Shown: one piece after another, positions 23,325-39,405 of the stretch
How the letters are laid out: each line of letters begins with the position of its first letter
Position numbering within the stretch: position 1 is the first letter of the stretch
Source: Selenomonas bovis DSM 23594
Lineage (GTDB): Bacteria; Bacillota; Negativicutes; Selenomonadales; Selenomonadaceae
Assembly (NCBI RefSeq): GCF_000381005.1
Contig: NZ_KB908383.1
Location: 1-54,981, forward strand
Reading direction: 5' to 3'
Length of the DNA: 54,981 nt
Made by a program: the position numbers and the translations under genes
Notes under the pieces: generated by a model
What the model saw: the letters and a program-made list of their open reading frames with translations, nothing else
What the model was told of the DNA's origin: nothing
Databases searched by the model: none

Positions 23325-23345
23325 TTTCCGCTCACGCGTGCAACC

Positions 23346-24254: not shown

Positions 24255-24284
24255 ATATAGAATCGTGAATATTGATCTTCTTAA

Positions 24285-24310: not shown

Positions 24311-24372
24311 CTATACGGTCAGTTGCTAGGCGCTTATGATGATTCTCTGGGATTTCACAAAAAAATACAAGA

Positions 24373-24419: not shown

Positions 24420-24534
24420 GCCTGTGGATAACTCTTTTTTGTTTTATGCGGGCTTTTTCAGTGCCCTCCTATGCCGGGGGGATTTATTTAATAGGCCATT
24501 TTGTTACAGCCTATTCATGTGAATGCGATTAAAG

Positions 24535-24873
24535 TTAATCGCCGTTGCGCACACTTGAAGCACATATAACATAGCTCATATGATAATTTTGATTTTTATT
24601 CATATTCTTTACGCATATCCAATTTGCATCGCCATCATTTGGGCGCGCACATGTTCCATCATCCTTTTCGAAATCTGTCGTTTCTAAAAATAAATCTGGT
24701 AGGCAAACTTCCTTATAGACAGCATCAATAACAAACTTTTGGCCTCCATATGACAGATAACCTTCAAGCACAAGATGATATTTTGGAGCTAGATTTTGTG
24801 CTGCAATATCTTTGATTTCCTTCAACGAATATTGCTTATTCTGATCGAAATATTGGTCTCGTATGTTTGACAT
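24535..24873 (-). CDS. Hypothetical protein, 112 residues
   Basis: I do not recognise a family. The protein is soluble, with an N-terminal helical part (SLKEIKDIAAQNLAPKYH), a middle part with VLEGYLSYGGQKFVIDAVY and a polar end with NWICVKN. Support for a real gene comes from its own promoter with both boxes, an AAAGGA ribosome site seven bases before the ATG and normal codon use. It lies between two insertion sequences, so it may be cargo or the only survivor of the original locus. Confidence 0.6.
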   Translation of the reverse strand: MSNIRDQYFDQNKQYSLKEIKDIAAQNLAPKYHLVLEGYLSYGGQKFVIDAVYKEVCLPDLFLETTDFEKDDGTCARPNDGDANWICVKNMNKNQNYHMSYVICASSVRNGD

Positions 24874-24929
24874 TGTATCATTCCTTTTAGATAATTCTTC
24901 TATGATATATTCTATAATTCTATAATTCT

Positions 24930-24957
24930 ATTTTATCATCCTACCATAAAATGTCAA
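24930..24957 (-). promoter_or_regulatory. Promoter of the 112-residue gene
   Basis: On the minus strand TTGACA (24952-24957), a 16-base spacer and TAAAAT (24930-24935) with an upstream TG (extended -10) point at the hypothetical gene. The -35 box lies about ten bases from the stop of the IS256-type transposase, so the arrival of that IS could have supplied it. Confidence 0.65.
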
Positions 24958-24966
24958 TAACTAGGA

Positions 24967-26238
24967 CTAAAGGGCGTGCCAAGCATTTTGTGTAAAATCT
25001 TTATCGTATTGTTCCATTAGGCCTGCCATCCATTCGTCCATCAGCAACTGATTGCGGATGAGCGCCAAATTCGGAAGGTGGTGCTTACTCCATTTCTGGT
25101 AGAGTTCGAGGATGCGAAGATAGAAAATCTTGTAGACTGCCTCCTCGTTCGGAAACGAGCCTTTCTTTGTGACTTTCCGGAAGCTGGCGTTGACGCTCTC
25201 GATGGCGTTCGTCGTGTACATCACTTTGCGCACTGCGCTACCGTAATTGAAAAGCTGTTCGACGTGCTGGAAATTGTTCTCCCACACGGCAACGGCTCCC
25301 GGATAGTCTGCCCAGTCCTCCTTGAATTTGGAGAATGCTTTCCGCGCAGCTTCTGCTCTGACAGCGCCATAAACCGTTTTCATCTGTCTGGTGAAAGCGC
25401 TCCAGCTCTTGCGCGGGACGTAGCGGACAGAATTGTGGATGAGATGCACGATGCAGCGCTGGACGACCACCTCGGGAAAGATGGCTTTCGCACCTTCCTC
25501 CAAACCGCTCACGCCGTCCATAGAGAGGAAGCCGAGATCGCGGACGCCGCGCGCCTTGAGCTCATCGAAGATCTGCATCCAGGTATGCTTGCTCTCTGTC
25601 TCGTTGATCCAGAGACCGAGGACGTCCTTGTAGCCGCTGGCATCGTAGGACAGCATGGCGTAGACCGCCACCTGCTGCACGCCGCGTTCCGTGCGCACGG
25701 AGACGTAGATGCAGTCCACAAAAGCAAAAGGGTAGAACGACTTCAACGGGCGCGTGCGCCAGCGGTCCACTTCCTCCATGACGCAATCCGTGATATTGGA
25801 AATCTGCTCGTGCGACAGCTGGAAGCCATAGATGTCCTCGATGGTAGCGGCGATATCTCTCTGGCTCATACCGCGTGCGTACATGGCCAATACCTTGCCC
25901 TCGATGGAGGAGATATCCTTCTGGTGCTTCTTGATGACCTGTGGCTCGAAGGTGCCCTGACGGTCACGGGGAATCTTGAGCGGCAGCTCGCCCAATGATG
26001 TCCGAATGTTCTTCTTGGAATAGCCGTTGCGGTAGTTGTCGCTTTCGGCGGTACGCTCGTGCTTCTCATAGCACAGGTGATTCTCAAGCTCGCCCTTCAG
26101 CATGGACTCGAAGATGGGCGCGAAAATCTGCTTCAGGACATCCTGCACGTCCTGGGCATCCTTGATGTCATAGTTGGATAAAATCTGCTGAGCAATTTGC
26201 TCACCAGGCATATTGGGAGTGTTTTTCTTTCGTGCCAT
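24967..26238 (-). CDS. IS256-family (mutator-type) transposase
   Basis: This full-length DDE transposase of 423 residues has the family pattern NYRNGYSKKNIRTSLGELPLKIPRDR, FVDCIYVSVRTERGVQ (first Asp), SMDGVSGLEEGAKAIFP (second Asp), VQRCIVHLIHNSVRYV and TTNAIESVNASFRKVTKKG (Glu). The frame extends upstream to 26346, but the ATG at 26238 has AAGGA at the right distance and begins MARKKNTP as relatives do. The terminal inverted repeats are not evident to me, so the limits of the element are unset. It appears intact and possibly active. Confidence 0.93.
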   Translation of the reverse strand: MARKKNTPNMPGEQIAQQILSNYDIKDAQDVQDVLKQIFAPIFESMLKGELENHLCYEKHERTAESDNYRNGYSKKNIRTSLGELPLKIPRDRQGTFEPQVIKKHQKDISSIEGKVLAMYARGMSQRDIAATIEDIYGFQLSHEQISNITDCVMEEVDRWRTRPLKSFYPFAFVDCIYVSVRTERGVQQVAVYAMLSYDASGYKDVLGLWINETESKHTWMQIFDELKARGVRDLGFLSMDGVSGLEEGAKAIFPEVVVQRCIVHLIHNSVRYVPRKSWSAFTRQMKTVYGAVRAEAARKAFSKFKEDWADYPGAVAVWENNFQHVEQLFNYGSAVRKVMYTTNAIESVNASFRKVTKKGSFPNEEAVYKIFYLRILELYQKWSKHHLPNLALIRNQLLMDEWMAGLMEQYDKDFTQNAWHAL

Positions 26239-26558
26239 TGGTTCCATCCTTTTGATTATTTTTCCCAGTATGGGGCATGAAGCGTATTCTTGCAATTCCT
26301 GATTTACACAAACTATTTTACACTCCCACTCCTTCTGTTTCATCACACCATGTGGTATGGGATGGTACTAGGAAAAATGATTTCGTCATAAACTCTACGA
26401 TGGGTTTACATGAAAAGCAACGCAGATGAAAAAATACAGTGTATGTAGGGAAGGATGAGCTTATCTGTCGTATAGGGGTAAACCGTAGGGAGGTTATTCA
26501 GATAATGGAAAAAACGATAATAAAGATAGAGAAACGGAGATGAAGAGGGAGGCTGTTT
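26239..26558. other. Gap between IS256 transposase and the acyl/transketolase operon
   Basis: These 320 bases contain the upstream part of the IS256-type element and the leader of the next operon. GATAAT near 26495 could be a -10 box but has no good -35. A GAGGGAGG ribosome site at the right end serves the gene at 26559. I see no repeat or further gene. Confidence 0.5.
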
Positions 26559-27248
26559 ATGAAACGCGTTTTGGGTATCTATGGCTCGGGGGGGCTTGGC
26601 AGGTGTATTAATGAGCGTCTTCCTAAAGCGGAGCCAAGGTTCGCTGAGGTGGTATTCATTGACGATACGGTTCCGGAAGATATTTTCAGGAATCGGCGGA
26701 GGATGTCCTTTGCGTCGTTCTGCGAACGATATGCGCCGACGGAGGCGGATGTCATCATTGCGCAAGGGGAACCGGCACTTAGGGAGGATCTGTATTGCCG
26801 AGTGAAGAAGGCGGGGTATGCGCTTGCAACGATTTTGTCGGAGGGCGCATTTGTCAGTCCTTATGCACATGTAGGCGAAGGCGTTTTTATTTTCCCTGGT
26901 GCTGCCGTGGAAGATAATGCGGTGGTCGAGGATGATGTCTGCATTGCCGACCATGCGGTGGTCGCGCATGATGTCCACATCGGCAAGCATGTCTGTGTGG
27001 AGGCACAGTCTGTGGTTCCCGGGCATGTGGTTGTAGGCGAAGGAGCGTTCATCGGTATCGGGGCGCTGCTCCGCGACCGCGTGCGCGTCGGAGCGCATGC
27101 CGTGGTTGCCATGGGCGCCGTGGTCATGCGGGATGTGCCTGAGGCGGTAGAGGTGATGGGAAATCCCGCGCGCGCCTGCCGCAGGATTGATACATCGCAG
27201 CGTGTTTTTGCTGAGTATTACCATGGAACGGAAAGTGGAAAAGAGTAA
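26559..27248 (+). CDS. PglD/NeuD-type sugar O/N-acyltransferase (hexapeptide repeat)
   Basis: The first 80 residues of this 229-residue protein form the Rossmann-like domain of this family (MKRVLGIYGSGGLGR). The rest is a left-handed beta-helix built from hexapeptide repeats (HVGEGVFIFPGAAVEDNAVV, VVGEGAFIGIGALL) ending in VMGNPARACR. Enzymes of this group move an acetyl or other acyl group from CoA, or possibly ACP, to an amino or hydroxyl group of a nucleotide sugar. As first gene of the operon it may attach the acyl chain made by the genes that follow. Confidence 0.82.
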   Translation: MKRVLGIYGSGGLGRCINERLPKAEPRFAEVVFIDDTVPEDIFRNRRRMSFASFCERYAPTEADVIIAQGEPALREDLYCRVKKAGYALATILSEGAFVSPYAHVGEGVFIFPGAAVEDNAVVEDDVCIADHAVVAHDVHIGKHVCVEAQSVVPGHVVVGEGAFIGIGALLRDRVRVGAHAVVAMGAVVMRDVPEAVEVMGNPARACRRIDTSQRVFAEYYHGTESGKE

Positions 27249-27252
27249 TATC

Positions 27253-27696
27253 ATGGTGAGGTTAGATCGGAACGATTTTCCTGCCTATTTCCGGCAGACG
27301 CTGGATTATGTCTTTCTCGACGTGGTTGAGGTCGAGCCGGGAGAGCGCGCAGATGGATATTTGAAGCTCGTGCCTGAGGCTTGGTATTTCCCAATGCATT
27401 TCCCGGGGAATCCGGTCTTGCCTGGTGTTTTCCAGATGGAGTGTCTCCAGCAGACGGGAGGTCTGATCCTCAATACGATGGAGGGACGCAGGGAAGAGCG
27501 TCTTTACTTTTGTGCTTGCCAGGACGTCAGGATTCACCGGAAGGCGGTTCCCGGCGACTGCCTGCATTCAGAGGTCTCTTTGCTGCGGTTCCGCCGGGGG
27601 ATCGCGAAGTTTCAAGGAACGTTGTATGTGAATGATGCCGTTTCCTGTCAGATGCAGTTCGCGTTGGCAGATCCGGATGAGGTGAGTGTATTATGA
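27253..27696 (+). CDS. FabZ-like 3-hydroxyacyl-ACP dehydratase
   Basis: This hotdog-fold protein of about 147 residues carries the FabZ signature HFPGNPVLPGVF, with His49 as catalytic base and Glu63 in the following helix (FQMECLQQTGG). It differs from housekeeping FabZ in having MHFPGNPVLP in place of GHFPxxPVMP. It begins at ATG 27253, four bases after the previous stop; an in-frame ATG at 27223 inside the previous gene is an alternative. It overlaps the next gene by four bases. It would dehydrate a hydroxyacyl chain on the operon's own ACP. Confidence 0.78.
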   Translation: MVRLDRNDFPAYFRQTLDYVFLDVVEVEPGERADGYLKLVPEAWYFPMHFPGNPVLPGVFQMECLQQTGGLILNTMEGRREERLYFCACQDVRIHRKAVPGDCLHSEVSLLRFRRGIAKFQGTLYVNDAVSCQMQFALADPDEVSVL

Positions 27697-28469
27697 GTGA
27701 TTTACTGAGGGGACACTGCGCTGTGGTCACGGGGGCGCGCCGCGGTATCGGCCGCCAAACCGTCGAGGTGTTTGCGCGTGAGGGCGTCCGCGTCGTATAT
27801 GCCTGCGCACGCAAGGAGGATGACGCTTTTGCCGCTGACATGCGCAGTATCGCGGAGAAATATGGGGTGTCTGTGCGACCGGTTTATTTTGATATCTCGG
27901 ATGAAGCAGCCATTGTTCGAGGTGTTCGCGAGATTCGCTCACAGAAGGATGCGGTGCCGGATATCCTTGTCAATTGTGCGGGGATTTTATCTCGTCCCTG
28001 CCGGTTCAGCATGATGTCGATTCAGGAGGCGAAGCGTCTTTTCGATGTGGATTTTTGGGGACAGGTGATTCTCACACAGCATCTATCGAAGATATTCCAT
28101 CGGCAGCGGCGCGGCAGCATTGTCTTTGTGACTTCGATCGCCGGGATGGATGGATTCTTTGCCTCGCTGGACTACGTTGCGTGCAAGGCGGCGCTGAATG
28201 CTGCAGTCGTGCAGATGGCACGGGAACTCGGGGAGGTGCATGTGCGTGTGAACGGCATTGCGCCGGGGCTTACCAAGACGGACATGATCGCGCATCAGAA
28301 CCCGGCGGCTATGGAGATGTTGAAGCCCGCTATTATGCTCGGACGTTTCGGAAAAAAGCAGGAGATTGCAGAGGCAATCGCGTTTCTCGCCTCGGATGCC
28401 GCGTCCTATGTGACAGGACAGATTTTGCGTGTGGATGGCGGGACGCATCCGCCGAAAGCGAATTGGTGA
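27693..28469 (+). CDS. FabG-like short-chain dehydrogenase/reductase
   Basis: The 258-residue protein has the NAD(P) motif TGARRGIG at 13-20, NCAG at 94-97 and the catalytic set Ser148, Tyr161 and Lys165 (DYVACK). The C-terminus SYVTGQILRVDGG is typical of 3-oxoacyl-ACP reductases. It starts within the stop of the FabZ-like gene. It probably reduces a 3-oxoacyl-ACP or a ketose-type intermediate; the sequence does not decide which. Confidence 0.83.
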   Translation: MSDLLRGHCAVVTGARRGIGRQTVEVFAREGVRVVYACARKEDDAFAADMRSIAEKYGVSVRPVYFDISDEAAIVRGVREIRSQKDAVPDILVNCAGILSRPCRFSMMSIQEAKRLFDVDFWGQVILTQHLSKIFHRQRRGSIVFVTSIAGMDGFFASLDYVACKAALNAAVVQMARELGEVHVRVNGIAPGLTKTDMIAHQNPAAMEMLKPAIMLGRFGKKQEIAEAIAFLASDAASYVTGQILRVDGGTHPPKANW

Positions 28470-28474
28470 TAGAG

Positions 28475-29296
28475 ATGAAAACACGAGAAGAATTAGAAAA
28501 GATTGCTTATGAAATGCGGAAGGATATCTTGCAGATGGGCTTGCAGTCAGGGGTGAAGGGCGCGCATCTTGGCGGCGGTATGTCCATTGTAGAACTGCTG
28601 GCAGTGCTCTATGCGGACGTCATGCAGTATCGTGTAGAGGAGCCTGACTGGGATGGGCGTGATCGGTTTATCCTGAGTAAGGCACACAGCGCGATCGGGC
28701 TCTATGCGGCGCTTCATTTTGCGGGATTCCTGACGGATGAGGAGATTGCAGGAGCCTTTGTTCCGGGCAGTGTGCTTTATAAGCATCCGCGTCTGGATCT
28801 TGCCAGAGGGATCGAGTTCTCGGGGGGCAGCTTGGGACAGGGGCTTTCCCTGGCAGTTGGCTCCGCGCTTGCGTTGCGGCTGCGGAGAAATCCGGCGAGG
28901 ATTTATGTCGTGGCAGGCGACGGCGAATGTGATGAGGGTTCGCTTTGGGAAGCGGCGGCATCGATCGTCCATTTTGATTTGCGGCAGGTGGTTCTGGTGA
29001 TTGACAGGAATGGTCTGCAAAATGATGGAACGACGGAGGATGTCATGCGTCTGGGAGATCTCGGAGAGCGGTTCCGCTCGATGGGATTTGCTGTGTCTGA
29101 CGTCAATGGGCATGATGTGGTCGCGCTCCGAAAGGTACTCACAGAAGATGCTGATCGCCCAAGAGTTATCATCTCGCATACGGTCAAGGGGAAGGGTGTT
29201 CCTTTCGCTGAGAATCAGGTGGCATGGCACATCGGTTATCTGACGAAGGAGCTTTATCAAGAGGCAATGGAGAGTTTGTCATATGTTAGAGATTAA
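28475..29296 (+). CDS. Split transketolase, N-terminal (thiamine-binding) subunit, pair 1
   Basis: This 273-residue protein corresponds to the first third of transketolase. It has GAHLGGGMSIVE, FSGGSLGQGLS and the diphosphate/Mg motif GDGECDEGSLWEAA, closed by DRNGLQNDG. SKAHSA replaces the more usual SKGHxA found in the second copy. It starts at ATG 28475; the open frame upstream to 27974 runs through the FabG gene and is not coding. It overlaps the next gene by 14 bases, as expected for two halves of one enzyme that moves two-carbon ketol units. Confidence 0.88.
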   Translation: MKTREELEKIAYEMRKDILQMGLQSGVKGAHLGGGMSIVELLAVLYADVMQYRVEEPDWDGRDRFILSKAHSAIGLYAALHFAGFLTDEEIAGAFVPGSVLYKHPRLDLARGIEFSGGSLGQGLSLAVGSALALRLRRNPARIYVVAGDGECDEGSLWEAAASIVHFDLRQVVLVIDRNGLQNDGTTEDVMRLGDLGERFRSMGFAVSDVNGHDVVALRKVLTEDADRPRVIISHTVKGKGVPFAENQVAWHIGYLTKELYQEAMESLSYVRD

Positions 29297-30263
29297 TCGC
29301 AGGAACGCCAGAATCTGGTCGATGCTCGGCATGCGCCGAGTACTCGGGATGGCTCTTTCTGAGCTGGCGGAACAGGATGAGCGTTTCGTATTCGTCACAG
29401 CGGATGTAGCGCGCTATTTCGGCGCGGAGAAATTCGCGCAGGCATACCCGGATCGTTACATCGATGTGGGGATCGCAGAACAGAATATGGTCACGGTGGC
29501 GGCTGGTCTTGCCAAGGAGGGATATCATCCCCTGACGGCGACCTACGCGACATTCACTACGGCGCGCGCCTTGGATCAGGTGCGTGTGAGTCTTGCCTAC
29601 ATGGGGCTTCCTGTCTTGCTCGTGGGAGTCGGCGGCGGATTGGCCGAGGGGGATCTCAGTGCAACTCATATGGGACTTGAGGATGTGGCCGTGATGCGTG
29701 TGCTGCCGAAGCTCACCGTGATCGAGCCGGCAGATTGTGCGGAATTGTTGCTGGCTCTGCAGGCGCTGATTCGCGAGCCGCGTCCTGCCTATCTCCGCCT
29801 GACGGGGAAGACAGGGCAGCCGATGCTGTATCGTAATATGTTCGAGTATACGATAGGAAAGGCGAATTGTCTCCAGGGGGGGGACGGTTCCCTCGCTTTT
29901 CTCACTGCAGGTACCGTCACGGCGCAGGTGCTCAAGGCGGCGGAGTCTCTTGCCGATGCTGGCACGGTACATGCCTCTGTGTATGACATGCACACCATCA
30001 AGCCCTTGGATGCGGCACTTCTAGAGGAGCTCTCGCATTGCGGGCGGCTGGTCGTCGTGGAGGAGCATATGCAAAGCGGCGGTCTGGCGGGCGCCATAGC
30101 GGAGTTCTATGCTGAGCGCGCCCAAAGGCCGCGGATCCTTGCTCTCGGCGTGAAGGATGCCTATCCTGCAGCAAATGATTATGAGGAAATGCTCCGCTTG
30201 AGCGGACTGACGGCGGAGGGGATTGCGTCCTCTGTGCAACGATGGATGGAGGCAGAACAGTGA
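29283..30263 (+). CDS. Split transketolase, C-terminal subunit, pair 1
   Basis: This 326-residue partner of the preceding gene carries FVTADVARYFG, the cofactor-activating glutamate in DVGIAEQN, YATFTTARALDQVRV, and the C-terminal fold with HTIKPLD and VVEEH. It ends in a four-base GTGA overlap with the radical SAM gene. Being in the operon and different from pair 2, it is likely a specialised transketolase, not the pentose-phosphate enzyme. Confidence 0.87.
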   Translation: MLEINRRNARIWSMLGMRRVLGMALSELAEQDERFVFVTADVARYFGAEKFAQAYPDRYIDVGIAEQNMVTVAAGLAKEGYHPLTATYATFTTARALDQVRVSLAYMGLPVLLVGVGGGLAEGDLSATHMGLEDVAVMRVLPKLTVIEPADCAELLLALQALIREPRPAYLRLTGKTGQPMLYRNMFEYTIGKANCLQGGDGSLAFLTAGTVTAQVLKAAESLADAGTVHASVYDMHTIKPLDAALLEELSHCGRLVVVEEHMQSGGLAGAIAEFYAERAQRPRILALGVKDAYPAANDYEEMLRLSGLTAEGIASSVQRWMEAEQ

Positions 30264-31309
30264 GCGTCATGAAAAAACCTCTGGTTCTTGCGAAGATGCA
30301 TCGTTTTTTGAGAGATGTGCGCAAGAGAGGAAATAAGATCCAGGGGGGGGAGACTCCAAGACAACTTGTCATCGACTATGACAATACCTGCAATTTTCGC
30401 TGCAAGTTCTGTTATGAACAGGAGGACAGGGCGCACAACGGGGAGCATCTTTCCTTGGAAGAGATCGCGGACATCGCGGATCAGGCCTATGAGCTCGGCA
30501 TTTGGGAAATCATTTTTCAGGGCGGAGAACTGCTGGTGGATTATGAAGCATTCCGCAGACTCCTGAAGGCTGTCCGTCCGGAAAGGTTCCGCACGGTACT
30601 CGTGACGAATGGATATTTGCTCTCGAAGCAGCGTGCGGAGGAGCTGGCAGACGATGGCCTCGATTGCGTAGGCGTCAGTATTTCAGGGCTGGATGCGGAA
30701 AGCCATGATGCGGATCGCGCCGTCCCGGGCGCGCATCAAAGGGCGCTGGAGGCGCTTGATGCGGCAGCGTCCGCGGGGCTGACGACATGGGCGCAAGTGG
30801 TGTTCGGACATCACAATGCACATTCTAAGGATTTGTTTGCGCTGCTGGAGTATCTGAAGCAGAGACGTCTTGGCACGTATTTTATTCTAGCGATGCCGTA
30901 TGGAATTTACGAAGGTTCGACCTTGACGAGCGAGGATCTCGCCGTCTTTCAGAAGATCCGTCAGACGTATACCTGCTATTTTGATACGTGGGATATGTAT
31001 GATCCGGAGCGCAAACGTCTTACGGGATGCTGGGCGGCCGGCGGAGCGCGGCTCTTCATCACGCCGAAGGGGGATGTGCTCGCCTGTCCGTTCATCAATA
31101 TCCGTTTCGGCAATGTGAGGGAGAAGTCCCTGAAAGAAATCCATGACGCGATGACTTCCATCCGGTATTTCGGCTCGTATTCGCCGATCTGCCTGGCTGG
31201 TCAGGACAGGGCGTTCCGCAAGAAGTATCTGGATGGCATTGGCATGTCGATGTTCCAGCCGAAGGATGCTTGTGAGGTATTTAAGAATAAGGAGGATTTT
31301 TTACGATGA
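30260..31309 (+). CDS. Radical SAM protein with SPASM-like C-terminus
   Basis: The 349-residue protein has the CxxxCxxC iron-sulfur motif at Cys44, Cys48 and Cys51 (CNFRCKFC). IIFQGGELLVDY replaces the usual GGEP motif, and VTNGYLL follows. The C-terminal part GCWAAGGARLFITPKGDVLACPF resembles the SPASM/twitch region that binds an auxiliary cluster. GTG 30260 is chosen because GGAGG lies seven bases upstream and it overlaps the previous stop as GTGA. The reaction is unknown; in this setting it could modify the acyl or sugar intermediate. Peptide modification is less likely because no precursor peptide is visible. Confidence 0.82.
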   Translation: MSVMKKPLVLAKMHRFLRDVRKRGNKIQGGETPRQLVIDYDNTCNFRCKFCYEQEDRAHNGEHLSLEEIADIADQAYELGIWEIIFQGGELLVDYEAFRRLLKAVRPERFRTVLVTNGYLLSKQRAEELADDGLDCVGVSISGLDAESHDADRAVPGAHQRALEALDAAASAGLTTWAQVVFGHHNAHSKDLFALLEYLKQRRLGTYFILAMPYGIYEGSTLTSEDLAVFQKIRQTYTCYFDTWDMYDPERKRLTGCWAAGGARLFITPKGDVLACPFINIRFGNVREKSLKEIHDAMTSIRYFGSYSPICLAGQDRAFRKKYLDGIGMSMFQPKDACEVFKNKEDFLR

Positions 31310-31551
31310 ATGACAACATGAAAAAATATCTTGAGGTTTTTGAGACAATGTTCCAGGTGGATGAAGCGAAGGCGAAAACGCTGAACTATCAGGACGTGGT
31401 CGCTTGGGATTCCATCGGACATATGGATTTGATTGCGACGCTGGAGGATACGTTCGATATCGAGATGGAGACGAACGATATCATTGATTTCAGTTCCTTT
31501 GCAAAAGGCGTGGAGATTCTGAGGAAGTACGGAATCGATCTGGGAGAATAA
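31306..31551 (+). CDS. Acyl carrier protein
   Basis: The 81-residue acidic protein has the phosphopantetheine attachment site WDSIGHMDLI (Ser36), followed by a helix ending FDIEMETNDI as in ACPs. It overlaps the radical SAM stop by four bases (ATGA). A dedicated ACP inside the operon indicates that intermediates are carried as thioesters, loaded by the ligase at 33391 and probably unloaded by the LuxE/LuxC pair or by the acyltransferase at 26559. Confidence 0.9.
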   Translation: MNDNMKKYLEVFETMFQVDEAKAKTLNYQDVVAWDSIGHMDLIATLEDTFDIEMETNDIIDFSSFAKGVEILRKYGIDLGE

Positions 31552-31577
31552 GCTGACTTTTCTGGTGGAGGACTCAG

Positions 31578-32405
31578 ATGAAAGCATCTTTTGACGAAAA
31601 AGAAGTGCAGCGGCTGGCAGCGCGCATTCGGCTGGATTGTCTGAATATGACGTATGCACAGGGGACGGAGGGCGCTCACATCGGCGGCGCATTGTCACTT
31701 GCAGAAATTTTAGCGGTTCTCTATCACTCTGTCATGCGGGTGTCCCCTGATGGCAGGCGAGACGAACAAAGGGATCGCCTGATACTCAGTAAGGGGCATG
31801 GCGCCATGGCGCTATATGCGGCGATGAAAGAAGAAGGTGTCCTGCAAGAGGAGCTGGCCACTTATAAAAACGATGGTTCGCCGTTATCGGCGCATCCCTC
31901 CCGCGCGTCCATTCCGGGGGTGGAGTTTTCCAGCGGCAGTTTGGGGCAGGGGCTTTCCCTGGGCGTCGGGTGTGCTTTGGGGCTGCGGCGCAAAGGGAAT
32001 CAGGATGCCCGCGTCTTCGTCATTGTCGGCGATGGAGAGTGTGATGAGGGAGCGATATGGGAAGCTGCGCAGTCGGCGGCTCATTTTGGTTGCCGGAATC
32101 TCGTCGCCATTGTGGATCATAATCGCTTGCAATACGATGGCCCGACGGAGCAGGTGATGGCTCTTGCGCCGCAGCGTGAAAAATGGGAAGCGTTCGGATG
32201 GAAGGCACTGCAGATCGACGGCCATTCTGCGGAGGCGCTTTACGAAGCGCTGTCTATGCGGAGCAATCGGCCTCTCGTGGTCATTGCGGACACGGTGAAG
32301 GGGAAAGGTGTCTCTTTCATGGAAGGACACCCGGAGTGGCATAATCATGCACTGAGCGCGGAGGAGTTCGCGCAGGCTGTGAAAGAAATCGAGGCATCCT
32401 TATGA
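31578..32405 (+). CDS. Split transketolase, N-terminal subunit, pair 2
   Basis: This 275-residue paralogue of the gene at 28475 has GAHIGGALSLAE, SKGHGAMALYAA, FSSGSLGQGLS and GDGECDEGAIWEAA, with VDHNRLQYDG. The thiamine-binding residues are intact. It has a GGAGG site before ATG 31578 and overlaps its partner by four bases. The copy has diverged clearly from pair 1, so two distinct ketol transfers, or two donors, are plausible. Confidence 0.88.
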   Translation: MKASFDEKEVQRLAARIRLDCLNMTYAQGTEGAHIGGALSLAEILAVLYHSVMRVSPDGRRDEQRDRLILSKGHGAMALYAAMKEEGVLQEELATYKNDGSPLSAHPSRASIPGVEFSSGSLGQGLSLGVGCALGLRRKGNQDARVFVIVGDGECDEGAIWEAAQSAAHFGCRNLVAIVDHNRLQYDGPTEQVMALAPQREKWEAFGWKALQIDGHSAEALYEALSMRSNRPLVVIADTVKGKGVSFMEGHPEWHNHALSAEEFAQAVKEIEASL

Positions 32406-33376
32406 AATTTACGAAGTCAAAAGTCAGGATGATGTCGCACCTTGGTTCCTGCGGAGCCTACGGCTATGCGATGACGACACTTCCAGAGGCGGATGCGCGC
32501 GTCGTGGCATGTACGGCGGATCTGTGCTTCTATTCCGGCCTCGAGCGCTTCCAGCGCCTTTATCCGGAGTCGCTCTACAATGTGGGGATTGCGGAACAGA
32601 ATCTAGTCGGGATTGCAGCGGGATTGGCACATGAGGGCTATCGGCCATATGCTTCTACCTATGCGTCATTCGCTTGTACGCGGGCGCTGGATCAGGTCAA
32701 GGTCAATCTGGCATATATGCAGTTGCCGGTGCGGCTGATCGGTCTGAGTGCGGGGCTGGCTGCCGGTATTTTAGGCCCGACGCATATCTGCACGGAGGAT
32801 CTGGCTATTCTGCGCTCCTTGCCGAATCTCGTCATCGTGTCGCCGGCTGACGGCATGGAAATCGTGAAAGCACTGGAGGCCTCGCTGACTTTGGAGGCGC
32901 CGTTTTATTTGCGGCTGACGGGCGGGATGGAACTTCCTCCTGTCTATCAGGAGGATTACGACTTTGTCATTGGTAAAGCCGTCGAGCTCCGTTCAGGCGA
33001 GGATGTCGCGGTGATCGCGCAAGGATCGATGGTATCCTCCGCACTCAAGATGGCGGATCATCTGGAGCAAGCGCATGGCATCCGGTGCAAGGTGCTCAAT
33101 CTGCATACGCTCAAGCCGCTTGATGAAGAGGCGCTGGACGCGCTTCGCAGCTATCCCTTGGTCGTTACGATCGAGGAGCACAGCGTTTACGGCGGGCTGG
33201 GTAGCGCTGTCTCGGAGTTCTTTACCCGTAGATCGCAGGCACCGCGCGTCCTGCGGCTGGGCGTTTCGGATTTCTATCCGCATGCCGCGCGCTATGGAGC
33301 GCTTCTCGAAGAATGCGGTCTGACACCGGAGCGGATGGAGATACGTGTTTTGCAGGCGTGGCAAGAAGCGCGATAA
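32402..33376 (+). CDS. Split transketolase, C-terminal subunit, pair 2
   Basis: This 324-residue partner of the preceding gene contains VVACTADLCFYSGLERF, NVGIAEQNLVGIAAG with the catalytic glutamate, YASFACTRALDQVKV, LTGG and HTLKPLDEEALD. Pair 1 and pair 2 share layout but differ throughout, so they are not a recent tandem duplication. Confidence 0.88.
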   Translation: MKFTKSKVRMMSHLGSCGAYGYAMTTLPEADARVVACTADLCFYSGLERFQRLYPESLYNVGIAEQNLVGIAAGLAHEGYRPYASTYASFACTRALDQVKVNLAYMQLPVRLIGLSAGLAAGILGPTHICTEDLAILRSLPNLVIVSPADGMEIVKALEASLTLEAPFYLRLTGGMELPPVYQEDYDFVIGKAVELRSGEDVAVIAQGSMVSSALKMADHLEQAHGIRCKVLNLHTLKPLDEEALDALRSYPLVVTIEEHSVYGGLGSAVSEFFTRRSQAPRVLRLGVSDFYPHAARYGALLEECGLTPERMEIRVLQAWQEAR

Positions 33377-33390
33377 GGGGGCGTGTTCTG

Positions 33391-34812
33391 ATGTTTCATT
33401 GGAATGGAAGGGGGGATCGCCCCGCACTGCTGACGGAGAAGGATGTCTGGAGCTATGAGAGGCTGACTGAGGAAGCAGATGGAATTGCAGCGCATGTCGG
33501 TAGGCGCTGCCTTGTTTTCCTTTTGACGAAGAATGTCCCAGAGGCAATTGCCGGATATGTCGGTTTCCTTTCGCATGGCATTGTTCCGGTAATGGTGGAT
33601 GCGGCACTTGATGCAGAGCTTTTAGCAGAGCTGGTTGTGAGGTATCGCCCATCGTTTATTTGGACGCCGCAGGCAAGGAAAGCGGAGTTCGTTGGAGCGG
33701 AGGGGGCATTTTCTCTCGGCGACTATGTATTGCTTGACCGCAGGGAGACTGCGCCGTTCCCTCTCGCAGAGGAGCTTGCACTCCTCATGACGACGTCCGG
33801 TTCGACGGGGAGTCCGAAGCTGGTGCGGCAGAGCTATGCGAATCTGGAGGCAAACACGGCGTCCATCATAGAGTATTTGCACATCACGCCGGAGGAACGG
33901 GCCATCACGAATTTGCCGTTGCACTACGTGTATGGGCTCTCGATTCTGAATACGTATCTGACGGCAGGGGCTTCTCTTGTTGTGACGGAGAAGTCGTTTT
34001 TCTCGCGGGAGTTCTGGCGCTTGATGCGGGAGCAGCGCGTGACTTCGCTCGGCGGAGTGCCTTATACGTATGCGATGCTGAAGCGTCTGCGGTTTTTCCA
34101 GATGGATTTGCCGGCGCTCAGGACGCTGACACAGGCTGGTGGCAAGCTCGATCCGGAGCTGCATGCTGCTTTCGCTGAGGATTGCGCCCAAAAAGGACGA
34201 CGCTTTTTCGTGATGTATGGCGCTGCTGAGGCGACGGCGCGCATGGGGTATCTGCCAGCTGAACTTGCCTGCGCGAAGGTCGGCTCGATGGGGAAGGCGA
34301 TTCCTGGCGGCAGGTTCGAGTTGCTCGATGATGCTGGCAAGATTGTTACAGAAGCAGGACGTATCGGCGAGTTGGTCTACTATGGCGACAATGTGACGAT
34401 GGGCTATGCGACATCGGGGAAGGATCTCAGTCGGGGGGATGAGCGGCAGGGGCGTTATGTGACGGGCGACTTGGCGCAGTTTGATGCGGATGGCATCTAT
34501 ACGATTGTCGGCCGGAAAAAGAGATTCTTGAAGATTTTCGGCAAGCGTACGAATCTCGAGGAAGTGGAGCATATCCTGCGGCGGTGGCTGGCTGAGACAG
34601 GAAGTAGTGCTGAGGTAGCCTGCGCAGGCGTAGACGATCATCTCTATGTGTTTGTGACCGATGGGGCAATGGCTGGAAAGGTCGTTCCATATCTTAGCAG
34701 CAAGCTGGGGCTGCATTTTTCGGCGTTTGCGGCGAAGTTCATCCCCGCTCTGCCGAAGAGTGCGTCAGGTAAGACGCTGTATCGCGAGTTGGAGCAATAT
34801 TATGACGTATGA
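33391..34812 (+). CDS. AMP-forming acyl ligase (acyl-ACP/CoA synthetase-like)
   Basis: The 473-residue adenylate-forming enzyme has the AMP-binding loop TTSGSTGSPK at 134-143, a YGAAEATARMGYLP motif, YVTGDLAQFD and the C-terminal catalytic lysine in PKSASGKTL. It is somewhat short for the family. It starts at ATG 33391 behind AAGGGGGC; the frame upstream lies inside the previous gene. It would activate a free carboxylic acid as acyl-AMP and pass it to the operon's ACP or to CoA. It overlaps the LuxE gene by 11 bases. Confidence 0.85.
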   Translation: MFHWNGRGDRPALLTEKDVWSYERLTEEADGIAAHVGRRCLVFLLTKNVPEAIAGYVGFLSHGIVPVMVDAALDAELLAELVVRYRPSFIWTPQARKAEFVGAEGAFSLGDYVLLDRRETAPFPLAEELALLMTTSGSTGSPKLVRQSYANLEANTASIIEYLHITPEERAITNLPLHYVYGLSILNTYLTAGASLVVTEKSFFSREFWRLMREQRVTSLGGVPYTYAMLKRLRFFQMDLPALRTLTQAGGKLDPELHAAFAEDCAQKGRRFFVMYGAAEATARMGYLPAELACAKVGSMGKAIPGGRFELLDDAGKIVTEAGRIGELVYYGDNVTMGYATSGKDLSRGDERQGRYVTGDLAQFDADGIYTIVGRKKRFLKIFGKRTNLEEVEHILRRWLAETGSSAEVACAGVDDHLYVFVTDGAMAGKVVPYLSSKLGLHFSAFAAKFIPALPKSASGKTLYRELEQYYDV

Positions 34813-35881
34813 CGAAATCTTGAATCTGGAGCCGTTTGCCATAGGGCGAGAGGAAAAACGTCGGCTGATGACGGCGGGGCTGTCAGAACTTACAAGGCAT
34901 CACCAACAACAATGTTCTTTGTATGGGAGAATGCTGGACACCATCGGCTATCAAGAGTCGGCCGTGAAAGAGTTGGAAGATATGCCGTTCCTCCCCGTTC
35001 GTCTGTTCAAGGAGCTGGAACTAAAGAGCATTCCGCAGGAGGATGTGTTCAAGGTGATGACGTCCTCTGGGACAAGTGGTCAGCAGGTATCGCGTATTTT
35101 CCTCGACCGCGAGACAGCGGGCAATCAGCAGAAGACGCTGGTGCGCATTTTTGAGAGCATGACGGGAGCGAAGCGCATGCCGATGATAATTGTTGACTGC
35201 CCTTCAGTGGTGAAGAACCGTGCGATGTTTTCGGCGCGCGGGGCTGGTATTCTGGGGTTTTCGATGTTCGGACGCAAACGGATCTATGCGCTTGACGATG
35301 ACATGCATCTGCAGCTGGATGCTGTCAGGGCATTCATTGATGAGCATGCTGGGGAGAGAATCTTCCTGTTTGGCTTCACGTTCATGATATGGCAGCATTT
35401 CTACAGGGCGTTAAAGGAGAGCGGAGTGCATCTCGATCTCCGTAATGCTGTGCTCGTGCATGGTGGCGGCTGGAAGAAGCTCGAGCAGGAGGCAGTTTCA
35501 CCGGAGGAGTTCCGCTCGGCGCTCCGCGAGGTGACGGGTATTCCGCGCGTCGTCAATTACTATGGCATGGTAGAGCAGACAGGCTGCATCTACATGGAGT
35601 GCGAGGCAGGTCATCTGCATGCGAGTACGTACTCGGATGTTATAGTACGTCGAGGAAATGATTTTTCACCTGCTGCGATTGGTGAAAAGGGCATCCTTCA
35701 GGTGGTTTCGCTTTTGCCGCATTCCTATCCGGGGCATTCGATGCTGACGGAGGACGAGGGCGTCTTGCTCGGTGAGGATGATTGTCCGTGTGGACGCAAG
35801 GGGAAGTATTTCAAGGTTCTTGGCCGGCTCAAGAATGCAGAGCTCAGGGGGTGCAGCGATACCTATGCAGCAAGATTTTGA
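34802..35881 (+). CDS. LuxE-like acyl-protein synthetase
   Basis: The 359-residue protein resembles LuxE, the part of fatty acid reductase that activates a carboxylate and hands it to LuxC. Landmarks are LPVRLFKELELKS, the ATP-binding loop TSSGTSG at 87-93, VNYYGMVEQTGCIY and a CPCGRKGKYFKVLGR end. ATG 34802 lies inside the end of the ligase gene, and the stop lies 17 bases beyond the LuxC start. No luxAB genes are present, so bioluminescence is not implied; an aldehyde for another use is. Confidence 0.84.
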   Translation: MTYDEILNLEPFAIGREEKRRLMTAGLSELTRHHQQQCSLYGRMLDTIGYQESAVKELEDMPFLPVRLFKELELKSIPQEDVFKVMTSSGTSGQQVSRIFLDRETAGNQQKTLVRIFESMTGAKRMPMIIVDCPSVVKNRAMFSARGAGILGFSMFGRKRIYALDDDMHLQLDAVRAFIDEHAGERIFLFGFTFMIWQHFYRALKESGVHLDLRNAVLVHGGGWKKLEQEAVSPEEFRSALREVTGIPRVVNYYGMVEQTGCIYMECEAGHLHASTYSDVIVRRGNDFSPAAIGEKGILQVVSLLPHSYPGHSMLTEDEGVLLGEDDCPCGRKGKYFKVLGRLKNAELRGCSDTYAARF

Positions 35882-37055
35882 TGTAGAATATGTAATAGGG
35901 TCTCCAAAGGTAGAGGCGGCTTTGTCTGAGGCAGCGGCATTGCCGCCGTTTTCGGAACAGGCGTTGCAGTTCTTATCGGTTCTTTCCGGGTTGGCTCTGA
36001 AAGATGCGGAGGGACATGTCTATCCGGATGTCGTGACATTCGGCTTTTGGTGTCGTAAGGCGTCATTGATGAAGCAGCGAGCGATGTATGATGATTTGTC
36101 CGTGCGCCTGGGGCGCGGTGTTGTTTTCCATGTGGCACCGTCCAATGTGGCTGTGAATTTTGCCTATTCCTGTGTAGCGGCATTTCTTGCAGGGAATGCA
36201 AGCGTAGTACGCTTGCCATCCAAGAAATTCCCGCAGGTTGATATTTTCTGCCGTCTATGGCGTGAGGCACTGGCGCAGGTGCCGGAACTGCAGCAGTATT
36301 TCCTCTTTGTGCGTTATGGGCATGAGGACGAGGTGAATGCGCGATATTCGTCGCTGGCCGATACCAGGGTGATCTGGGGCGGCGATGAGACGATCAGGAG
36401 GTTTCGTCAGTATCCTTTGAAGCCGCGGGCGAATGAGGTTACCTTTGCGGACAGATTTTCGCTGGCGGTCATCGAGGCTGATCGATATATGGCGAGCGAA
36501 GGAAAGGATGCTTTGGCGCAGGCATTCTATAATGATACGTATCTGTCTGATCAGCAGGCTTGTACATCACCACATCTGGTTGTTTGGTTCGGGGAGCGAA
36601 CGGCTGAGGCGCGCAGGGCGTTCTGGGAGCGGCTGCATGACCTTGTGGCGAAGGAATATGATTTTTCTGCAGTGCAAGCAGTAGACAAATATGATGCGTT
36701 GCTGCGGCTTGGTGCGGAGATGAAGCTGCGACAGGTGAAGATGGAAGATCAACTCGTAGTGCGGGCAGAGGCGGAGAAGCTGACGCCGCGCCTGATGGAG
36801 GTGCGGACAGGAAGTGGTTTCTTCGTCGAATATATTGCGGATGATCTTGCGGAACTGTATCCGGTATGGGGGACGATGACGCAGACCGTTTCCTATTTCG
36901 GATTTACATCGAAAGAGATACAGGCAACCGTCATGGCGGGATGTCCTCGCGGTGTTGACCGCATTGTGCCGATAGGCCATACGCTTGATTTTTCACTTTT
37001 CTGGGATGGCTATGACCTGATTCGCAGTATGAGTCGTGTGGTTGGTGTAGTGTGA
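35865..37055 (+). CDS. LuxC-like acyl-CoA/acyl-protein reductase
   Basis: This 396-residue member of the aldehyde-dehydrogenase-like LuxC family forms an acyl-thioester on a cysteine and reduces it with NADPH to the aldehyde. The active cysteine is Cys233 in SDQQACTSPH, preceded by a nucleotide-binding segment (FHVAPSNVAVNFAYS). ATG 35865 begins MQQDFDVEY; the open frame upstream overlaps LuxE. LuxE followed by LuxC with overlap strongly suggests a two-part carboxylate reductase. The product aldehyde is an obvious acceptor for transketolase. Confidence 0.85.
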   Translation: MQQDFDVEYVIGSPKVEAALSEAAALPPFSEQALQFLSVLSGLALKDAEGHVYPDVVTFGFWCRKASLMKQRAMYDDLSVRLGRGVVFHVAPSNVAVNFAYSCVAAFLAGNASVVRLPSKKFPQVDIFCRLWREALAQVPELQQYFLFVRYGHEDEVNARYSSLADTRVIWGGDETIRRFRQYPLKPRANEVTFADRFSLAVIEADRYMASEGKDALAQAFYNDTYLSDQQACTSPHLVVWFGERTAEARRAFWERLHDLVAKEYDFSAVQAVDKYDALLRLGAEMKLRQVKMEDQLVVRAEAEKLTPRLMEVRTGSGFFVEYIADDLAELYPVWGTMTQTVSYFGFTSKEIQATVMAGCPRGVDRIVPIGHTLDFSLFWDGYDLIRSMSRVVGVV

Positions 37056-37134
37056 AGATAGTGGGAGATATTGTAGGCTGCTGTTTTTGTGACGCAGTCA
37101 TCGATGCCGTTGGTTACTATATGTGGAGGTAGGA

Positions 37135-38231
37135 ATGTATTGCTGGATACATAAGGGCGATTCATTAGCGAGATCTCTTTTGAAAGATGATATAGAAATA
37201 CGGTATATAGAAGAATCAAAGAAATTTAGTCCATCTCCGGTTGATGTTCTGGTTGTACCAAAAGGAGATATTATTGCAAGTCTGATAGAAAATAAAAAAG
37301 CTGTCGAGTATCTTATTATGATGCATATGTAGAAAATGTTTTCAATCATATGTCAGGAGTTAATACATATGACTATATGTATTTGAATTATCATTTGCAT
37401 AATAAAGCAGTAAGTACTGTTTTTATTGGTTCGTCGTATATGAATTTTGGCATAGATGTGTCTTTAGTTGATAAGGCGGCGAATCTTGCTCTAGCTTCAC
37501 AAGATATATACTATAGCGTGATGCTTGCAAAAAAACTTTATAATCATACTAAATATAAAAAAGTATTTTTGGGCGGTTATTATTATACTATTTTTAGCGA
37601 TTTGTCTATGACGAAGGATCATGCTGAACTGGCGAAAATATCTGATATATATAGCCGTATTTTCTCTGGCGCTGAGGGATTTCATCATGCAATATGTCTT
37701 CCAGATAGAAGTGAACCAGATAGAGTAAATGGGATATATGATAAAAAGCGCATTGATAACTATCTATCAAAAAAAATATTCGGAGCGACAGATGGTAATT
37801 ATTGGGGAAGTATAAACCGCGAGATGCATCGTATGTATCCTAAATCATGGGGAGATTATACAGACGAGGAAAAGCAGGAATTGGGAAAGTGGCGAGCGAA
37901 TTGTCATAATAAAAGCATACGATATAAGTCAAGCTTTAAGGAAAATTTGGATATCTTATGCGCATTTATGACTTGGTGTGAAACGCATGAAATAGAGCTT
38001 AATATCATTAATTTCCCTGTGACTAAGTTCTATCGTAGATATTTTTCAGATGAGTTTTCGCAGATATATTATGAATGCTTGGAGAGGATGCGAATGGATG
38101 GATTGAAGTTTAATCTTTATGATTTTGAGAGTGTTCCCTTTGATGATAGCGATTTTGTTGATACTGATCACTTGAATGACTGCGGTGCAAGAAAATTGAC
38201 GAGTATCATTTTGGATATGGCTAGGTGTTAG
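37135..38231 (+). pseudogene. AT-rich gene split by a frameshift, SGNH/GDSL-like
   Basis: The first frame starts at ATG 37135 behind GGAGGTAGG and runs 65 codons to a stop near 37332. A second frame, readable from before 37320 (YDAYVENVFNHM), continues to 38231 and contains VFIGSSYMNFGID and, near the end, DTDHLNDCGARKL. These recall the GxS and DxxH motifs of SGNH-type esterases or O-acetyltransferases. A single base change near the A-run at 37291-37302 or at 37310-37325 would join them. The composition is much more AT-rich than its neighbours. Two separate genes, programmed frameshifting or a sequencing error are alternatives. Confidence 0.55.
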
Positions 38232-38292
38232 TTTGTTGTTAGATTAAGCTGATATATGCGAAAGATATATTTTAAGAGTAGGTGAATACACG

Positions 38293-39405
38293 ATGGGGAA
38301 GATCCTAGTAACGCGATCATCCATGCCGCTGTTCGAGGAGTATGTAGATGAGATTCGTGATTTGTGGGAGTCGCGTTGGCTCACAAATATGGGGGCAAAG
38401 CATCAGGCGTTCGTCAAGGCACTGGAAGAGTATATGGGTGTTGAGCGCATTGATTTGCTGGTGAACGGCCACATGGCGCTCGAGATGACGCTGCAGGCGA
38501 TGAATCTGCACGGCGAGGTCATCACGACGCCGTTTACCTTTGCCTCGACGACGCATGCGATCGTGCGCAACGGGCTCACGCCTGTGTTTTGCGATATCGA
38601 TCCTGAGGATTATACGCTGGATACGGCGAAGCTGGAGGCGTTGATCACGGATCGCACCTGCGCCATCGTGCCGGTGCATGTCTATGGTCATGTCTGCCAT
38701 ATCGAGGAGATTCAGCGCATCGCGGACAAGTACGGCCTGCGCGTGCTCTATGACGCGGCGCATACGTTCGGCGAGACGTACCGGGGCCGGGCCGTCGCGG
38801 ACTACGGGGACGCCTCATGCCTGAGCTTCCACGCGACGAAGGTGTTCCATACCATCGAGGGCGGCGCTGTGGTCTTCCATGATGAGGAGCTGGGCAAACG
38901 CATCTGGGATCTGAAGGATTTCGGTATCCATGGGCCGGAGAGCGTGGAGGCGGTTGGCGCCAATGCGAAGATGAACGAGTTCTGCGCGGCGATGGGGCTT
39001 TGCAATCTCCGCCATGTGGATGAGGAGATCGCGAAGCGCGGTAAGATCGTCGCACGTTACCGCGAGCGTCTTGAAGGCGTGGAGGGCATCAAGCTCAGTC
39101 CGCAGCAGCGGGATGTGAAGCCGAACTATGCGTATTTCCCCGTGGTGTTCGACGAGAAGGTGTTCGGTGCGACGCGCAATGAGGTCGCATACCACCTGGC
39201 AGAGCACGACATCATGGCAAGGAAATATTTCTATCCGCTCGTGAATGACTTCGACTGCTACCGCAGCCAGTATGACTCCAAGGATACGCCTGTGGCGCTT
39301 TCCATAGCGAAGCGCGTGCTGACGCTGCCGCTCTATGCGGAGCTGGGGCTCGACGAGGTGGACGAGATTTGTCGACTGGTTTTGGAGTCGCGGGCTGCGG
39401 TTTGA
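38293..39405 (+). CDS. DegT/DnrJ/EryC1/StrS-family sugar aminotransferase
   Basis: These PLP enzymes aminate keto-sugars on nucleotide carriers. In this 370-residue protein the family motifs are visible: TTPFTFASTTHAIVRNG, VHVYGHVC, DAAHTFG and the PLP lysine Lys183 in FHATKVFHTIEGG. It resembles the VioA/FdtB group acting at C4 or C3 of dTDP-sugars, but the exact substrate cannot be read. It follows the frameshifted gene and ends the operon-like run. It could aminate a ketone made by the transketolases or a standard 4-keto-sugar. Confidence 0.88.
   Translation: MGKILVTRSSMPLFEEYVDEIRDLWESRWLTNMGAKHQAFVKALEEYMGVERIDLLVNGHMALEMTLQAMNLHGEVITTPFTFASTTHAIVRNGLTPVFCDIDPEDYTLDTAKLEALITDRTCAIVPVHVYGHVCHIEEIQRIADKYGLRVLYDAAHTFGETYRGRAVADYGDASCLSFHATKVFHTIEGGAVVFHDEELGKRIWDLKDFGIHGPESVEAVGANAKMNEFCAAMGLCNLRHVDEEIAKRGKIVARYRERLEGVEGIKLSPQQRDVKPNYAYFPVVFDEKVFGATRNEVAYHLAEHDIMARKYFYPLVNDFDCYRSQYDSKDTPVALSIAKRVLTLPLYAELGLDEVDEICRLVLESRAAV

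Follow-up and report, generated by a model that had tools for sequence, protein, structure and literature searches.

In the O1 antigen of Vibrio cholerae, perosamine is N-acylated with 3-deoxy-L-glycero-tetronate, and deletion of wbeL removes the antigen (PMC3441752; unless indicated otherwise, published systems are described here from excerpts of the cited papers). RfbL activates 2,4-dihydroxybutanoate for coenzyme A (CoA) or the carrier RfbK (PMC12208996), and RfbN contains a LuxE domain (PMC4772473). This tetronate pathway is the nearest system with an assigned function to the locus studied here, an operon of twelve genes within a stretch of 54,981 nucleotides (nt) from Selenomonas bovis DSM 23594 (contig NZ_KB908383.1, positions 1 to 54,981; hereafter the window). 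The likeness lies in an adenosine monophosphate (AMP)-forming ligase and a carrier that activate a dihydroxy acid, in the LuxE domain and in an N-acyl group placed on an amino sugar. Compared by published family names rather than by sequence, the tetronate-type set of acyl carrier protein (ACP), AMP-forming ligase, LuxE, acyltransferase and aminotransferase is found entirely within positions 26559-39405 of the window. We take RfbN to have a LuxC part as well, and likewise assume the roles of the other tetronate genes; to our knowledge, no transketolase (TK) belongs to the pathway. The window adds two split TK pairs, a FabZ-like protein and a radical S-adenosylmethionine (rSAM) enzyme, and a longer chain is predicted for it. 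On balance, we consider it probable that a short polyhydroxylated acyl group is built on the private ACP of the operon and attached to an amino sugar of a flagellin or cell-surface glycan.

Other near sets have been described, several of them in flagellin glycosylation islands. In the Aeromonas group II polar flagellin island, orf1 (ACP), orf2 (FabG), orf3 (ligase), luxE and luxC lie downstream of pseH, which corresponds to the TK-less core of the window set; the authors read them as fatty aldehyde or liposugar genes, and the word transketolase is absent from the main text (PMC7874193). In Enterobacteriaceae, flagellin glycosylation islands of two to four types carry ACP, LuxE, LuxC, ligase and FabG genes in 71-80 strains (PMC4875605, in which the word transketolase does not occur). 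Dickeya has a TK-bearing set between fliA and fliC that shares with the window the core families, a TK pair, an acyltransferase with a hexapeptide-type name (maa) and an aminotransferase, but it has a single TK pair and the excerpts name neither rSAM nor FabZ (PMC7575072, PMC4522980, PMC6206727). It was read as fatty acid and sugar biosynthesis in these papers, one of which deemed a flagellar role unlikely (PMC4522980). With near sets in print, the gene set of the window is not wholly new. The preliminary description of this DNA, made from its sequence alone, knew of no described pathway with this exact set, and the excerpts indeed mention neither an rSAM enzyme nor a second TK pair. No passage joining TKs to LuxE/LuxC in a mechanism was found in searches of open-licence papers. 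What is new here is that the module is widespread, that its TKs form a family of their own with an altered acceptor side and that the TK is exchangeable.

Open reading frame (ORF) calls and profile searches returned the twelve genes at 26559-37055, all on the + strand and with catalytic motifs, in the families and the order of the preliminary description (Table 1): NeuD/PglD-type acyltransferase, FabZ-like protein, short-chain dehydrogenase/reductase (SDR), N and C subunits of the first TK (TK1), rSAM/SPASM enzyme, ACP, N and C subunits of the second TK (TK2), AMP-forming ligase, LuxE and LuxC. The overlapping or nearly touching gene ends noted there were also recovered. With the starts as chosen here, six of the 11 neighbouring pairs overlap, four are spaced by 4-14 nt and one, between ACP and TK2, by 26 nt. 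Neither a ketosynthase nor a luciferase family occurs among the Pfam matches of the operon proteins, as had been stated (luxAB was not searched genome-wide), and the cluster thus lacks the ketosynthase expected of a type II fatty acid synthase. The aminotransferase at 38293 probably still belongs to the functional unit.

LuxE and LuxC score 192.4 bits against PF04443 and 70.3 bits against PF05893, respectively, both over the curated Pfam cut-offs and with their cysteine motifs present. Cys351 of LuxE is invariant in 16 aligned sequences and aligns with a cysteine of the solved LuxE 7xc6. In 6 of 80 related loci (L083, L085, L098, L106, L111 and L125), the two proteins are fused in a single frame of 774-795 amino acids (aa). 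Because the cysteine motifs are kept and such fusions occur, an aldehyde is the expected product, in line with the preliminary description. The families and the reductase logic are those of the LuxC/LuxE fatty acid reductase of bioluminescence, but the scores fall far under the cut-offs of the luminescence equivalogs of NCBIfam (33.7 of 750 bits for NF052251, LuxC, and 64.0 of 550 bits for NF052244, LuxE). On these scores, and with no luciferase family in the operon, a role in luminescence was dropped. At L024, L026, L034, L096, L104, L111, L119, L131 and L132, LuxE is present twice, in most cases with a LuxC for each copy, as if two reductions were needed.

Both TKs of the window contain all residues of thiamine diphosphate (ThDP) binding and ketol transfer (H26, H66, H100, D155, N185, H261, E411 and H473 in E. 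coli numbering). By alignment, H26, H66, H100, D155 and H261 correspond to His31, His71, His104, Asp149 and His252 in the N subunit of TK1 and to His34, His74, His106, Asp152 and His255 in that of TK2; E411 and H473 are kept in the C subunits as Glu66 and His129 (TK1) and as Glu65 and His128 (TK2). The loss of catalytic residues, which the preliminary description had named as evidence that would speak against its pathway, was seen neither in these TKs nor in the LuxC of the window. The acceptor side is changed. In TK, H461 and D469 form the phosphate clamp and the contact to the acceptor alpha-hydroxyl. They are replaced by Gly117 and Leu125 in TK1 and by Ser116 and Leu124 in TK2, so that neither qualifies as an ordinary pentose-phosphate TK at these positions, and S385 is replaced by Tyr45 and Tyr44, respectively. 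The two TKs are 43 percent identical to each other. Since the genome has its own full-length TK (472 bits, 667-aa frame), both split pairs are extra; a housekeeping pentose-phosphate role was dropped on this ground and on that of the changed acceptor-side residues.

In a stepwise evolved E. coli TK, S385Y/D469T/R520Q, acceptor use was moved away from phosphorylated substrates towards polar, aliphatic and aromatic aldehydes without a phosphate (PMC5073344), and Tyr385 and Leu469 in both window TKs match this engineered enzyme in part. Position 520 could not serve as a marker, since a G is aligned with R520 in ordinary split TKs as well. The nearest solved relative of the N and C chains of TK1 is the split TK of Carboxydothermus hydrogenoformans (6yak, 6yaj), a split ThDP enzyme that takes several aldehydes with hydroxypyruvate. 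Its C chain keeps the residues aligned with H461 and D469 (by eye), whereas the TKs of the cassette do not; D469E is named as not present in it (PMC7661550).

The changed acceptor side is common to the relatives of these TKs. When 57 distinct cassette pairs were mapped in E. coli TktA numbering, H461 and D469 were kept in none of them; H26, N185, D381 and E411 were kept in all 57, H261 in 56 (one gap), H66 in 55 (two gaps), H473 in 55 and H100 in 51. Non-cassette split TKs served as control, drawn from 30 loci among the matches listed. In 15 module-carrying genomes, 12 of 17 non-cassette C chains have both H461 and D469 (L157, at 48 bits, was omitted from the 17 as a weak match), the exceptions being L167, L169, L170, L174 and L184, and none of 11 non-cassette TKs from Treponemataceae lost both residues. 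In a TK tree from a quick search, with support given as the Shimodaira-Hasegawa-like approximate likelihood ratio test (SH-aLRT) only, one branch with a support of 100 unites the two window TKs and L184 with 56 of the 57 cassette TKs; just outside it are L110 and two ordinary pairs (L169 and L174). The cassette TKs are thus a family of their own with a changed acceptor side and nearly all catalytic residues kept. As the ketol-transfer residues are kept and H461 and D469 are lost, transfer of a ketol unit to a LuxC-type aldehyde, which the preliminary description had proposed, is well motivated.

Within the order, a LuxC match was present in 30 of 189 genomes, the window's own included. Stretches retrieved from these genomes comprise 30 loci, several of them cut by contig ends, and one or more TK N/C pairs are found in 13. 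When named genomes were scanned with LuxE, at least 560 relatives were obtained, including ones from Bacillota, Bacteroidota, Spirochaetota, Synergistota, Pseudomonadota, Thermodesulfobacteriota and Melainabacteria. The best 80 loci were kept; at least two of them (L053 and L055) are shared with the order search, and L028 is the same locus as L055. Loci with at least 6 kb upstream and at least 4 kb downstream of LuxE (63 of the 80) are called full loci. Among these 63, a ligase is found in 62, ACP and LuxC in 59 each, an SDR in 50 and a TK pair in 33. NeuB-like and FabZ-like genes occur in 17 each and an acetohydroxyacid synthase (AHAS)-like ThDP enzyme in 12. Five full loci have an rSAM gene, all with a FabZ-like gene and four with a TK. 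The gene recognised 5' of cassette TK N-subunit genes, within 300 nt, is an SDR in 31 of 44 cases. Gene order, which the preliminary description had expected to be conserved, is partly so. The module is real and its motifs are intact, with a patchy distribution.

The TK is exchangeable within this module, NeuB-like and/or AHAS-like enzymes, or neither, being present in other full loci. A TK and an AHAS-like ThDP enzyme never occur together (33 full loci with TK only, 12 with the ThDP enzyme only and 18 with neither; Fisher p 3e-5), and TK and NeuB occur together in 4 (p 0.009), both tests ignoring kinship. Presence of a TK switches often over a 64-row LuxE tree, with a minimum of 17 changes (shuffled mean 21.5). 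Its alternation with NeuB/ThDP is a trend, because only four supported independent pairs bear on it (median p 0.125). A NeuB-like synthase plus an AHAS-like ThDP enzyme were seen in place of the TK at L028, L029, L031, L060, L085, L094, L102, L109 and L112, several of them with paired ketosynthase III (KSIII) genes.

From the calculated gene content, motifs, altered TK acceptor side and co-occurrence, we infer the starting acid, the order of steps, the product and the roles of TK1, the FabZ-like protein and the rSAM enzyme. LuxE would adenylate a small acid at one carboxyl group, the simplest candidate being malate or another C4 dicarboxylate, and the acyl group would pass from the C-terminal cysteine of LuxE to LuxC, which would release the aldehyde (a semialdehyde). 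A TK pair would then add a two-carbon ketol unit to this non-phosphorylated aldehyde (R-CHO to R-CHOH-CO-CH2OH), the SDR would reduce the resulting ketone to a vicinal triol end, and the AMP-forming ligase would load the remaining carboxylate on the ACP. The FabZ-like protein, the rSAM enzyme and the second TK may tailor or extend the chain. The DegT enzyme would make a 4-amino-6-deoxy sugar nucleotide, to whose amino nitrogen the NeuD-type transferase would move the acyl group from the ACP. Where a locus has neither a TK nor another carbon-carbon enzyme, the product would remain a C4 dihydroxy acid, like tetronate. Lactate/malate dehydrogenase-type genes are present in 11 of the 80 loci, and the one such protein tested scores over the cut-off as an L-lactate dehydrogenase.

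An acyl product is favoured over a ketose because ligase and ACP are near-universal and because acyl- or aminotransferase genes occur in 44 and a glycan marker of some kind in 49 of the 63 full loci (both counts without a control rate); the proximity to glycan genes is thus frequent, not constant as the preliminary description had suggested might be found. Three further findings point the same way. Hexapeptide (9), lactate/malate dehydrogenase (7) and GNAT (7) are the commonest Pfam families among 114 flanking genes. On a Deinococcus plasmid that carries the TK-less core, the end of LuxC overlaps with the gene for a PglD-type transferase. A plasmid of Rhizobium anhuiense T24 (L200; NZ_CP098804.1 183330-202316) combines a TK with G461 and L469, a NeuD-type transferase, ACP, ligase, DegT (297 bits), LuxE, LuxC, SDR and FabZ.

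Glycan masses are consistent with such acyl groups. Replacing one acetyl group of the pseudaminic acid residue Pse5Ac7Ac (316.127) by dihydroxybutanoyl gives a computed 376.148. The linking sugar of Aeromonas AH-3 is 376.14 Da and carries a further unknown 102 Da unit; the former fits Pse5Ac7Ac with one dihydroxybutanoyl group and the latter C4H6O3 (102.032), although other formulas can give the same masses. For Treponema denticola flagellin, a novel glycan of 450.2 Da is described in an excerpted source, and its acyl group is reportedly 2-methoxy-4,5,6-trihydroxyhexanoyl. Pse5Ac7Ac with this group in place of an acetyl has a computed mass of 450.185, which other formulas may also give.

Several observations weigh against the acyl-group reading. 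We know of no product of a TK-bearing locus, TK1, the rSAM enzyme and the FabZ-like protein have no firm step, and the idea of a C6 chain rests on the T. denticola structure as it is said to be. That structure may arise otherwise, because the TKs of Treponemataceae are mostly ordinary where examined. A TK match at 1e-45 was present in 23 of 274 genomes of this family. Two of these (G290 and G394) have the cassette, and the 11 further TK stretches retrieved from 9 of the other 21 are all ordinary. The cassette TKs themselves are not uniform. At the D155 metal site, 10 of the 57 pairs have Asn and the other 47 Asp, two (L104_2850 and L126_6780) have Leu for His473, which the other 55 keep, and Ser385 and Arg358 persist in 24 and 34 pairs, respectively. 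Conversely, H461 and D469 are both lacking in 4 of 28 non-cassette C chains (L167, L169, L174 and L184), of which L184 is placed among the cassette TKs. Thioesterase genes, found in 16 of the 63 full loci, and metallo-beta-lactamase (MBL)-type genes, found in 9, are compatible with a lux-like route as well, in which acyl-ACP gives a free acid and then an aldehyde, and 14 of the full loci have no glycan marker. Five Treponemataceae loci (L133-L137) all have ACP, MBL and LuxE, and three of them LuxC, with no TK within the 19.9 kb retrieved; a protein resembling a CoA-transferase was also seen there by eye.

A refinement compatible with the acyl-group reading, which we regard as possible but not likely, is that TK1 and TK2 serve different aldehydes, giving either two acyl groups for the glycan or a single chain with two extensions. 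The TK1 of the window groups with the TKs of L129, L113 and L107 (SH-aLRT 100), all of them among the five full loci that have more than one TK pair; TK2 is sister to the TK of L069 and groups mostly with TKs of single-pair loci. The identity of 43 percent between TK1 and TK2 also counts for the refinement. On the other side, LuxE/LuxC, ligase and ACP are each encoded only once in the operon, and a TK product would end in CH2OH, so that a second extension would need an oxidation.

The pathway proposed in the preliminary description, in which ACP-bound chains become LuxE/LuxC aldehydes and TK hydroxyketones or unusual ketoses that the aminotransferase at 38293 turns into a new amino sugar-like unit, now appears unlikely. 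The TK active site would fit aldehyde acceptors in this case too, some loci have thioesterase or MBL hydrolase genes (type II thioesterases in 19 of the 80) that mimic the LuxD-LuxE-LuxC flow, and DegT is found in 32 of the 63 full loci, strongly in 10 of the 30 order loci (508-604 bits) and in the Rhizobium plasmid. However, the DegT of the window is nearest to DesI, a sugar-nucleotide 4-aminotransferase (296.4 bits, below the cut-off of 650), and the substrate for such a protein could come from an RmlB-type dehydratase encoded on another contig of the genome (492.9 bits). Aminotransferases also differ widely next to a conserved LuxE: many of the 80 loci have a weak DegT match (46-120 bits) or none at all, with LuxE at 60-75 percent identity. 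Amination of the ketol product would also give no role to the ligase and ACP, which almost all loci have, or to the N-acyltransferases, which are frequent, and these proteins point to an acyl group on an amino sugar, as in the tetronate pathway.

Still less probable is the proposal of the Aeromonas and Enterobacteriaceae papers that ordinary fatty-acid genes place a lipid on the glycan as a 'liposugar' (PMC7874193, PMC4875605), which draws on the FabG, FabZ and ACP homologies. No condensing enzyme is among the Pfam matches of the operon, and KSIII is present in only 11 of the 63 full loci. The linking sugar of Aeromonas is only 60 Da above Pse5Ac7Ac, too light for a fatty acyl chain, and the low LuxE and LuxC scores given above are against long-chain fatty acid models. 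We know of no place for a TK in lipid synthesis. A secreted small molecule (antibiotic or signal) in place of a glycan decoration is very improbable: the Rhizobium locus, on a symbiont plasmid, has the same genes plus a GMC oxidoreductase, a methyltransferase and a nearby TonB receptor gene, and the cispentacin models AmcB, AmcE and AmcH show weak below-cut-off similarity, but the window adjoins phosphonate, GT2, GT41 and FkbM genes, the published relatives, in excerpts, stand in flagellin glycosylation islands, and no resistance or export family is among the operon Pfam matches.

Table 1. Genes of the operon and the two genes that follow it, in window coordinates.
Feature	Position	Strand	Evidence
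NeuD/PglD-type hexapeptide sugar N-acyltransferase	26559..27248	+	TIGR03570 166.0 bits (cut-off 160.8); PglD_N, Hexapep
FabZ/FabA-fold dehydratase-like protein	27253..27696	+	PF07977 3e-16; motif HFPGNPVLPGVFQME
SDR (FabG-like) reductase	27693..28469	+	PF13561 5e-52; GARRGIG, YVACK
Split transketolase 1, N subunit (ThDP domain)	28475..29296	+	PF00456 3.2e-34
Split transketolase 1, C subunit	29283..30263	+	PF02779 (Transket_pyr) and PF02780 (Transketolase_C)
Radical SAM/SPASM enzyme	30269..31309	+	PF04055 6e-24; SPASM 2e-7; CNFRCKFC
Private acyl carrier protein	31306..31551	+	PF00550 0.0021, 18.7 bits (cut-off 20.8); Ser in DSI
Split transketolase 2, N subunit	31578..32405	+	PF00456 2.3e-40
Split transketolase 2, C subunit	32402..33376	+	PF02779 and PF02780
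AMP-forming acyl ligase	33391..34812	+	PF00501 1.3e-46
LuxE-type acyl-protein synthetase	34802..35881	+	PF04443 1.5e-56; SSGTSG, RGC, Cys351
LuxC-type acyl reductase	35865..37055	+	PF05893 1.9e-19; DQQACTSP
Gene between LuxC and DegT, membership uncertain	37350..38231	+	No Pfam family at E 0.01
DegT/DnrJ aminotransferase	38293..39405	+	PF01041 1.5e-96; HATK motif

The ACP of the window also matched NCBIfam acyl carrier protein models below cut-off. The gene between LuxC and DegT is AT-rich and has SGNH-hydrolase-like motifs by eye only, and 3' of the aminotransferase lies a gene for an AAA-ATPase_like/PDDEXK_9 protein (39502-41151). The 5' side of the operon holds GT2-type, GT41-like and FkbM genes, and directly 5' of it (22920-26346) are a Mutator-family transposase and, by eye, pieces of IS66-like transposase. 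Positions 2358-6784, beside glycosyltransferases, carry a phosphonate set consisting of a ThDP enzyme, which its context suggests to be phosphonopyruvate decarboxylase-like, a nucleoside triphosphate (NTP) transferase, a phosphoenolpyruvate (PEP) mutase-cytidylyltransferase fusion and a class V aminotransferase; the set suggests aminoethylphosphonate on the same glycan. The Rfam scan of the window gave no match. Promoter and terminator scans gave 16 sites (10.6 +/- 3.5 in shuffles) and 23 sites (11.7 +/- 3.6), respectively, and no clear operon boundary site was seen in either.

None of the six flagellin (PF00669) matches of the genome is on the window's contig (C5), so that, unlike in the flagellin glycosylation islands, the window is not adjacent to a flagellin gene; other flagellar genes were not searched. 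A flagellin match was not found in 5 of 27 genomes searched (G029 and G191 being the same genome), and a flagellum-only role was dropped. In Kosakonia, a TK-bearing cassette lies beside fliZ-fliA (L101). One 3.9 kb stretch of the Kosakonia cassette had no match in 5,426 E. coli genomes at blastn sensitivity, and spread of the cassette into E. coli was dropped as a candidate.

More tentatively than for the acyl product itself, we suggest as a possibility that several phyla share one modular line for polyhydroxylated acyl side chains, in which LuxE/LuxC make an aldehyde, interchangeable carbon-carbon enzymes (re-shaped split TKs, or NeuB-like synthases and AHAS-like ThDP enzymes) extend it, and a private ACP carries the product for transfer to glycan amino sugars; the version in the window, with two TK pairs and an rSAM enzyme, would then make an undescribed type of chain. 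If true, the label 'fatty acid / liposugar' on a widespread glycan-island cassette would be replaced by concrete chemistry, and its TKs would be natural enzymes that partly match a laboratory-evolved substrate switch. The masses of unknown glycan substituents would become predictable, such as +60 Da on pseudaminic acid in Aeromonas, and the module would offer an enzyme source for polyhydroxy acids and new sugars.

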